From positions 186,001 to 250,000 of the IMG/VR virus record IMGVR_UViG_3300046542_000227: a stretch of DNA of 64,000 bases. One strand, 5' to 3'. Within the stretch, counting starts at the first letter, position 1, and each line of letters opens with the position of its first letter. The notes beneath the pieces are model-generated. The model saw nothing but the letters and a program-made list of their open reading frames with translations. It did no database searches and had not been told where the DNA came from. The translations under genes and the position numbers were made by a program. Shown one piece after another: positions 3,141 to 4,478 of this stretch. This DNA is from a virus.

Positions 3141-3164
3141 GCCGCCCCTAACCGGGCGGCTTTT
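3141..3164 (+). terminator. Intrinsic terminator
   Basis: A 7-bp GC stem (3141-3147 with 3154-3160) is followed by TTTTA. Confidence 0.8.
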
Positions 3165-3182: not shown

Positions 3183-3524
3183 ATGTCCGATAAACCACAA
3201 CCAGCGTTCGACCTGGTTAACTCCAGCCTTATATACAGCTGGGGTGGTCGTCCAGTATTCCTCGACGTTGAAGTAAAAGGACTACGGTTCTTTGCTCAAC
3301 CCGCTGAACCACTTTACATGGATTTCCTATTGGGTGATGTCAAACACCGACTGATCGCCCAGACGGATCCTGAGGGTGAAGAACCTCACGTTATCTGGAT
3401 GGGTCACTGTCCAGAAGATGATGACTTCTGGGTGCAGCTGGACATGGTCTCACTGCCTAAAGGGCATCCGACTCTCCAGTTCCTCCGTGTAGATGGCAAA
3501 CCCCTTTCGCAACACAAACCGTAA
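3183..3524 (+). CDS. Hypothetical protein
   Basis: A 113-residue soluble protein with a mixed beta-rich pattern (alternating hydrophobics, several Trp and Pro) and no recognised motif. It opens the transcript that continues into the exported TAXI-like protein 25 bases downstream. The ATG at 3183 follows the preceding terminator closely. No RBS of the usual AAGGA type is obvious, so the start is less certain than the frame. Confidence 0.55.
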   Translation: MSDKPQPAFDLVNSSLIYSWGGRPVFLDVEVKGLRFFAQPAEPLYMDFLLGDVKHRLIAQTDPEGEEPHVIWMGHCPEDDDFWVQLDMVSLPKGHPTLQFLRVDGKPLSQHKP

Positions 3525-3549
3525 AACCAACCGTAAGGAATGCAACAAG

Positions 3550-4434
3550 ATGAAAAATCTGTTCCTCGCTGTAATGATGATGGCCTCCGCTTCGGCAATG
3601 GCTGCTCCAGCTCTGACCATCTGCACTGGTGGTGTCGGCGGTGCTTACGCTGACCTGGGTAAAGAACTCGGCAAAGCGATCGTCGACAAAGTCAAAGTCG
3701 CATCGCCAACCGAAATGGTTATCCTCAACACCGGTGGTTCGGCCGAGAACGCCCAGCGTGTTTCCAATGGCACCTGCGCCATGGCGATCATGCAAGGTGA
3801 TGCTGTCGCCAGCCGTGGTCTGCCACGCGACATCAAGGTCACCAACGCCCACGAGGAGGTCATCTACTGGATTCACGGTAAGACCGGTCTGAAGGACTTT
3901 GCTGACATCAGCAAGCCTGAAAACAAGAACCTGGGCATCGCCATCGTTAATGGCTCCGGTGCGCAAATCACCCTGACCAACTTCGGTAGCGTCGATGAGG
4001 ACTACAAAGACCTCAACGTCATGCCGTTCGATGATTGGGAATTTGCTGCTGAAGCCGCTGCTGAAGGTCGTACGCGTTCTGCCGGTAAAGAAGTGAAGAT
4101 CGCTGGTATGCTTTACGTCGGTCGCGCTGGCTTCCTGCCGGGTGCAATCACCAACGACTACAGCCAAGACCTGACTGTCGGTGAGATCAACGAATCCAGC
4201 TTCACCAAGGCCAAGGACTACAACGACAACGTGCTCTACACCGAGTGCGAAATCAAGAAAGGTGATACCGGTCCGATCGCCACCGATACCTGGGGCAAAC
4301 CTGATACACTGTGCATGCGTGCTCAAGTCGTCTTCAACAACGACTACGTGAACGCCATGCCTGATGCTGATCAGCGTGTAATGCGCAAAGCAGTAATGCA
4401 AGGCACCGCGCAGGTTCTGCGCAACAGCCGCTAA
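3550..4434 (+). CDS. Exported TAXI-family-like periplasmic solute-binding protein
   Basis: A 294-residue protein resembling the TAXI family of TRAP-transporter substrate receptors. It begins with a classical Sec signal peptide (Met-Lys, ~14 hydrophobic/small residues, Ala-Met-Ala, about residues 1-19). The mature protein opens with the family signature TGGVGGAYADLGKELGKAI, where TGG..G.Y.PLG is usual. The later segment NGTCAMAIMQGDAVASRG matches the G.ADLGIVQSD block. Two such Cys (about residues 25 and 77) could form a disulphide. No transporter membrane subunits are nearby, so classical uptake is unlikely. AAGGA lies ~11 bases before the ATG. Strong C-ending codon bias suggests abundant product. 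It acts in the periplasm or is virion-borne; which one is unknown. Confidence 0.72.
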   Translation: MKNLFLAVMMMASASAMAAPALTICTGGVGGAYADLGKELGKAIVDKVKVASPTEMVILNTGGSAENAQRVSNGTCAMAIMQGDAVASRGLPRDIKVTNAHEEVIYWIHGKTGLKDFADISKPENKNLGIAIVNGSGAQITLTNFGSVDEDYKDLNVMPFDDWEFAAEAAAEGRTRSAGKEVKIAGMLYVGRAGFLPGAITNDYSQDLTVGEINESSFTKAKDYNDNVLYTECEIKKGDTGPIATDTWGKPDTLCMRAQVVFNNDYVNAMPDADQRVMRKAVMQGTAQVLRNSR

Positions 4435-4446
4435 CACGGCATAGGG

Positions 4447-4478
4447 GCGCTCCTTCGGGAGCGCTTCTTTTTTTCTTT
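4447..4478 (+). terminator. Intrinsic terminator
   Basis: Stem GCGCTCC/GGAGCGC (4447-4453 with 4458-4464) with a TTCG loop and a long T tract. Confidence 0.92.

Follow-up and report, generated by a model that had tools for sequence, protein, structure and literature searches.

The stretch of DNA analyzed here, referred to as the window, comprises 64,000 nucleotides of a giant Pseudomonas-type phage (bases 186001–250000 of a 267,320-base virus record) and carries a gene for a TAXI-type solute-binding protein of the family phrog_6856 (Table 1). The TAXI motifs quoted in the first-pass annotation, TGGVGGAYADLGKELGKAI and NGTCAMAIMQGD, are exactly present in this open frame. A start at position 3550 is favored because a TAAGGA ribosome-binding site precedes it and because start and site are identical in phage Noxifer and in another relative, L006. 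An alternative in-frame ATG at 3493 is less favored; the mechanical open reading frame that begins there runs into the upstream gene. The TAXI gene and a preceding open reading frame form one unit, bounded upstream by a terminator-like hairpin, which was read by eye and is absent from the output of the terminator scan, and downstream by an intrinsic terminator. Homologues of phiKZ gp59 and gp62 flank the unit. The replication and transcription cluster described earlier for this region is indeed there, with chimallin (the nuclear shell protein, C-terminal part), nvRNAP β′ and phrog_3254, then phrog_3294 and an SbcD-like gene (chmA–nvRNAP β′–…–SbcD). At the same locus, phiKZ carries gp60/gp61 and PhiPA3 has nothing annotated; because it is missing there from both phages, the TAXI gene is regarded as accessory.

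Table 1. Features of the TAXI gene and its surroundings (positions in the window)
Feature	Position	Strand	Details	Basis
Terminator-like hairpin	3141..3164	+	GCCGCCC-CTAACC-GGGCGGC-TTTT; closes the preceding unit, 3′ of the phrog_3254 gene	by eye
Upstream open reading frame	3183..3524	+	113 aa, soluble; same unit as the TAXI gene; no family match	
Ribosome-binding site	3534..3539	+	TAAGGA; kept in Noxifer and L006	
TAXI-type solute-binding protein gene	3550..4434	+	294 aa; phrog_6856	
Sec signal peptide	3550..3603	+	MKNLFLAVMMMASASAMA; predicted cleavage A18/A19 (AMA/AP)	sequence inspection
Span C25 to C76	3622..3777	+	Cys pair; likely disulfide	
Y33	3646..3648	+	VcGluP Y45 equivalent (ligand amino group); invariant	profile alignment, PMC11574862
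S64	3739..3741	+	VcGluP S75 equivalent; S in 19/20 phage TAXIs, T in PBC5	
Q82	3793..3795	+	VcGluP Q93 equivalent; strongest determinant; invariant in phage TAXIs	
E103	3856..3858	+	VcGluP E125 equivalent (contacts the amino group of the ligand); no variation among phage TAXIs	
Span C233 to C255	4246..4314	+	both Cys invariant throughout phrog_6856; a disulfide is likely	
Intrinsic terminator	4443..4475	+	straight after the TAXI gene; stem of 11 bp with a T run, z −4.3	

The TAXI protein is 85% identical to its counterparts in Noxifer and L006, with dN/dS values of about 0.22 and 0.11, respectively, and is for these reasons taken to be the product of a real gene. The upstream open reading frame is 28% identical to the one at the same place in Noxifer and not evidently related to it, a position that amounts to a variable slot between the two phages; given these two identities, the TAXI gene is the constant part of the insert. 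The upstream frame was considered as a partner of the TAXI protein and rejected, since it matches no family and resembles neither the Noxifer frame nor phiKZ gp60. The high codon bias noted from the sequence was confirmed, with an ENC of 35.5 that ranks the TAXI gene sixth of 200 genes, next to the nuclear-shell gene chmA in fifth place, and the product is probably abundant in infection.

NMT1_3 (PF16868) matched residues 24–87 only (E 2e-8; 34.6 bits, above the cut-off of 27), TIGR02122 matched at E 1.4e-11 with 43.8 bits, under its cut-off of 84.35, and the phrog_6856 profile, labeled "unknown function," matched over the full length (residues 1–294, E 1.2e-71). A search of the PDB with a profile built from seven phage relatives found VcGluP (E 3e-7) and TtGluBP (E 5e-7). 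An AlphaFold model based on an alignment of 23 own and related sequences reached a pLDDT of 85.5 and a pTM of 0.82, the deeper alignment having raised the pLDDT from 72 in an earlier model. The top seven PDB structure matches of this model are TAXI receptors only (E 1.6e-13 to 1.5e-10, TM-scores up to 0.64), the first of them being glutamate-bound VcGluP (E 1.6e-13, TM-score 0.64); the modest TM-score may come from a different domain closure. The model thus predicts a two-domain, cluster-F periplasmic-binding-protein fold nearest to TAXI structures. Because the C-terminal half is unmatched by TAXI profiles, its docking surfaces may differ from those of known receptors.

In VcGluP, Y45, Q93, and E125 contact the amino group of the ligand and S75 holds its α-carboxylate; the substitutions Y45A and Q93A lower affinity 213-fold and 990-fold (PMC11574862). 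A further residue, D157, makes a water-mediated carboxylate contact. Residues of the window protein were paired with those of VcGluP by profile alignment, with numbers counted by hand along the aligned chain. Across 20 aligned phage TAXIs, some of which are only ~20–25% identical, Y33, Q82, D84, and E103 are invariant and position 64 is serine or threonine, and the pocket residues are likewise invariant in the 23-row alignment. Canonical bacterial TAXIs differ at two of these positions, with Q, L, M, or R in place of the glutamine and E or N in place of the glutamate. The kept residues point to an α-amino acid of the glutamate class as the probable ligand, which may not be glutamate itself, because the position of VcGluP D157 is alanine or glycine in phrog_6856. 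Structure prediction and pocket comparison, two of the checks proposed in the first-pass annotation, gave a TAXI-type fold in which glutamate-type ligand residues are kept, and this conserved pocket, as read from aligned sequences, favors a ligand-binding role for the phage TAXIs.

The proposed Sec signal peptide is borne out by a classical N-terminus in the window protein and by signal-like N-termini in those phage relatives that are complete, from which export is predicted. Cysteines 25 and 76 are both present or both missing among the aligned phage TAXIs; apparent exceptions in RHph and PBC5 reflect an alignment shift, as judged by the distance of the cysteine to the conserved glutamine. 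Bacterial TAXIs swap G/L for L/G at these two positions, which suggests that they are in contact. Together, the cysteine pairs 25/76 and 233/255 are consistent with an oxidizing periplasm. The same phage record encodes a second small exported protein (G000:C1:166119-166385, L061) of 88 residues, with a signal peptide and two cysteines.

Phages of several kinds carry relatives, among them phiKZ-like (Noxifer), Lana-like, T5-like Vibrio, and Ackermannviridae (GR28A, YC) phages, with more distant TAXIs in phages of rhizobia, Erwinia, Klebsiella, and Roseobacter. Members of phrog_6856 include Noxifer gp54, Lana gp88, and proteins of Vibrio phage 1.121.O, GR28A/YC, and 234P1; they are 31–85% identical and annotated throughout as hypothetical. 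A search among phiKZ relatives, as the first-pass annotation suggested, found the family in the Noxifer group only; it also occurs in the unrelated T5-like, Ackermannviridae, and Lana-like phages. Single-protein scans (T5-like and 1.121.O queries, viral contigs) and a first genome scan returned no relatives, and closer alignment succeeded. Bacteria rarely carry copies of the phage type: a survey of 299 Pseudomonadaceae genomes found 2, and the neighbors of at least one of these look prophage-like; no plasmid matched the phage TAXI family. P. alcaligenes RU38D (L038) has a member of phrog_6856 whose surroundings resemble a prophage, with repressor-like and C5 methyltransferase-like frames recognized by eye. 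A single origin for all phage TAXIs was rejected (AU test of a tree with one phage clade, p 6e-6), and the group of FBKp24 and Machinavirus nests among short orphan chromosomal TAXIs. Phages have acquired TAXI genes at least twice, a claim limited to this minimum because some branches of the tree are long.

Profile, fold, pocket, and signal-peptide evidence together back the first-pass description of a phage-encoded, exported TAXI-type binding protein. The product is probably exported, stabilized by disulfides, abundant, and able to close on an α-amino acid of the L-glutamate/glutamine type. The reading preferred here, which falls somewhat short of being probable, is that it serves as a periplasmic receptor for glutamate-type amino acids that is made in infection and passes its ligand to a host carrier. 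The TAXI gene would yield a soluble periplasmic receptor during infection, and the infected cell would keep taking in glutamate-family nitrogen and carbon or an osmolyte. The handing over of ligand to either GltS or the membrane subunit of a host TAXI–TRAP system is the more tentative part.

The statement that transporter genes are lacking was upheld for DctM and GltS (PF03616), neither of which was matched in the 267-kb record. Noxifer infects P. fluorescens SBW25. Among 60 genomes of the Pseudomonadaceae, a family that may not be that of the phage's host, 38 have a TAXI of their own and 18 have GltS. In P. alcaligenes (L064, 64-2388), a GltS gene is immediately followed by a gene for an N-terminally extended TAXI lipoprotein, a pair that resembles the Bordetella TAXI–GltS system (PMC12344293). 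An E. coli control genome contained no TAXI at 1e-20. Because the enterobacterial hosts of the FBKp24 and Machinavirus TAXIs may be without any TAXI–TRAP, a host TAXI–TRAP is not a universal partner.

In other phages, the gene neighborhood indicates a phage-encoded partner instead of a host carrier, because small membrane proteins are frequent there. Such a gene was defined as encoding at most 150 residues with a hydrophobic span of Kyte–Doolittle value at least 1.6 (a crude predictor that counts signal peptides too). In 10 of 11 annotated phage loci, the TAXI gene has an immediate neighbor of this kind, compared with a background of 9 among 176 other genes of those loci. With one entry per lineage, the count is 12 of 17 (P 4e-9 at a background of ~5% per gene, 5e-6 at double that), for lineages that are not fully independent and a pattern noticed post hoc. 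Many of the neighbors are hairpins of 50–57 residues with a basic C-terminus. Two-span proteins of this size, also with basic C-termini, are encoded immediately 3′ of the TAXI genes in L002 (6819-6986), L011 (6843-7007), L014 (6870-7031), L015 (6879-7043), L030 (5862-6026), and L034 (4885-5049), and several of these six genes overlap the TAXI stop codon. Other neighbors are upstream single spans of 37–39 residues (BDU, EBPR), secreted phrog_301 proteins (Vibrio phages), and, in Machinavirus, a match to the TciB-like family phrog_1470. In Erwinia phage Caitlin (L031, 1338-2847), a putative terB, a TciB-like gene (phrog_1470), and the TAXI gene are followed by a tRNA array, possibly an accessory cluster akin to tellurite/colicin resistance. 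The gene that overlaps the TAXI stop codon in L035 (6867-7430) encodes by eye a RuvC-like resolvase and no membrane protein.

This arrangement bears on a different and somewhat unlikely reading, in which the receptor would be a membrane-coupled sensor or effector that binds a periplasmic amino-acid-like ligand or a cell-wall fragment and controls an envelope event. It would work through a small inner-membrane protein, setting the timing of lysis, inhibiting lysis, or excluding a second phage. Besides the neighbor counts and the TciB-like match, it is favored by stop/start overlaps, TGATG in Lana and GTGA in PBC5 and L037, which suggest translational coupling, and by the presence of a neighbor in both separately acquired TAXI lineages. 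Against it, no such gene lies beside the TAXI gene in the window phage (whose whole 267-kb record was scanned), Noxifer, L006, L035, L036, or KLEP7, and in MD18 and DSS3P8 it is one gene further away; moreover, the small proteins belong to more than one family, and searches against holin and antiholin families gave no convincing match. In the window lineage, the membrane partner would, on this reading, be a host protein or be encoded elsewhere. The recurrent neighbor nevertheless keeps a membrane-effector role a serious rival. The receptor mechanism preferred above can also accommodate it: a tiny membrane protein may dock the receptor at the inner membrane in other phages, with the window phage lacking that neighbor.

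The two lines can be combined in a conjecture that is rather unlikely as a whole. Unrelated phages would at least twice have made a bacterial glutamate-type TAXI into the periplasmic half of a ligand-gated module with a tiny inner-membrane protein. By reading or redirecting the amino acids of its host, this module would govern an envelope event, and Noxifer-type jumbo phages would use a host membrane protein in place of the tiny one.

The remaining explanations fare less well. It is improbable that the protein acts as a dominant-negative form or sink, competing with the host TAXI or soaking up ligand and so blocking host uptake or signaling. The strong codon bias, the lack of phage DctM or GltS, and the host-side TAXIs would suit such a role, but a mere sink or blocker does not require a pocket that stays unchanged in phages whose hosts differ widely, and the phage would gain no obvious benefit. 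A virion or surface protein that re-uses the TAXI fold on the outer surface, in adsorption or exclusion, as raised in the first-pass annotation, would fit an exported and probably abundant product. It is highly improbable, given that a cleavable signal peptide and a conserved pocket poorly suit a virion part, and is set aside on gene context only: the surroundings of most relatives examined are replication, tRNA, or small accessory genes rather than the tail and head modules, with two loose exceptions in KLEP7 (at most 1.2 kb from a tail-fiber gene) and DSS3P8 (near a prohead protease). That the gene is a bacterial passenger with no role in infection, as its accessory status might suggest, is scarcely credible in view of purifying selection, codon bias among the phage's strongest, and recurrence in many lineages.

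Most phage take-over proteins known so far act in the cytoplasm. More generally, the repeated acquisition of TAXI genes, often coupled to a tiny membrane protein, suggests that phages manipulate periplasmic small molecules of the infected cell, and a widespread exported receptor with an unchanged pocket would, if true, represent a new contact of phages with host nutrition or envelope signaling. Data on ligand, export, and phenotype would give a role to phrog_6856; direct tests can build on the residues of the pocket, on the small membrane proteins, and on cultured phages (Noxifer, Lana, and the Vibrio phages). A TRAP/TAXI label is already attached to proteins of FBKp24, Machinavirus, KLEP7, EBPR siphovirus 2, RHph_I1_18, and PBC5. 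In Ralstonia phages RP12/RP31, a reported TRAP solute-receptor-like protein is numbered beside two ABC transporter subunits (PMC5468394), genes that might form a phage-borne complete uptake system. The TAXI label is already present in that paper and in some annotations, and no study of what a phage TAXI protein does was found in the open-access literature; new are the structural and pocket evidence for the window lineage, the acquisition on more than one occasion, and the small membrane neighbor that recurs.

Among phage systems, the exported TAXI receptors of FBKp24 and Machinavirus represent an acquisition separate from that of the window lineage. Within phrog_6856, the Lana and Vibrio phages have a small membrane-protein neighbor, in contrast to Noxifer and the window phage. 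Cyanophage PstS, a phage-borne periplasmic binding protein thought to work with the host phosphate transporter, offers a looser analogy; it is an auxiliary copy of a host gene and differs in family and ligand, whereas the phage TAXI family appears divergent and common to unrelated phages. VcGluP and TtGluBP, L-glutamate binders of the TAXI-type TRAP class, share with the window protein the fold, the signal peptide, the GGxY, TGGS, IxQxD, and HxE signatures, and the main ligand residues. Unlike them, the window protein is encoded by a phage without a TRAP membrane gene, is ~17% identical in the fold alignment, and has a C-terminal half below profile detection. With BP0403–GltS of Bordetella, it has in common a TAXI receptor that lacks a TRAP membrane component and the key tyrosine and glutamine; BP0403, however, is a dimeric lipoprotein with an extra N-terminal domain encoded beside gltS, and the phage has neither that domain nor gltS (PMC12344293).
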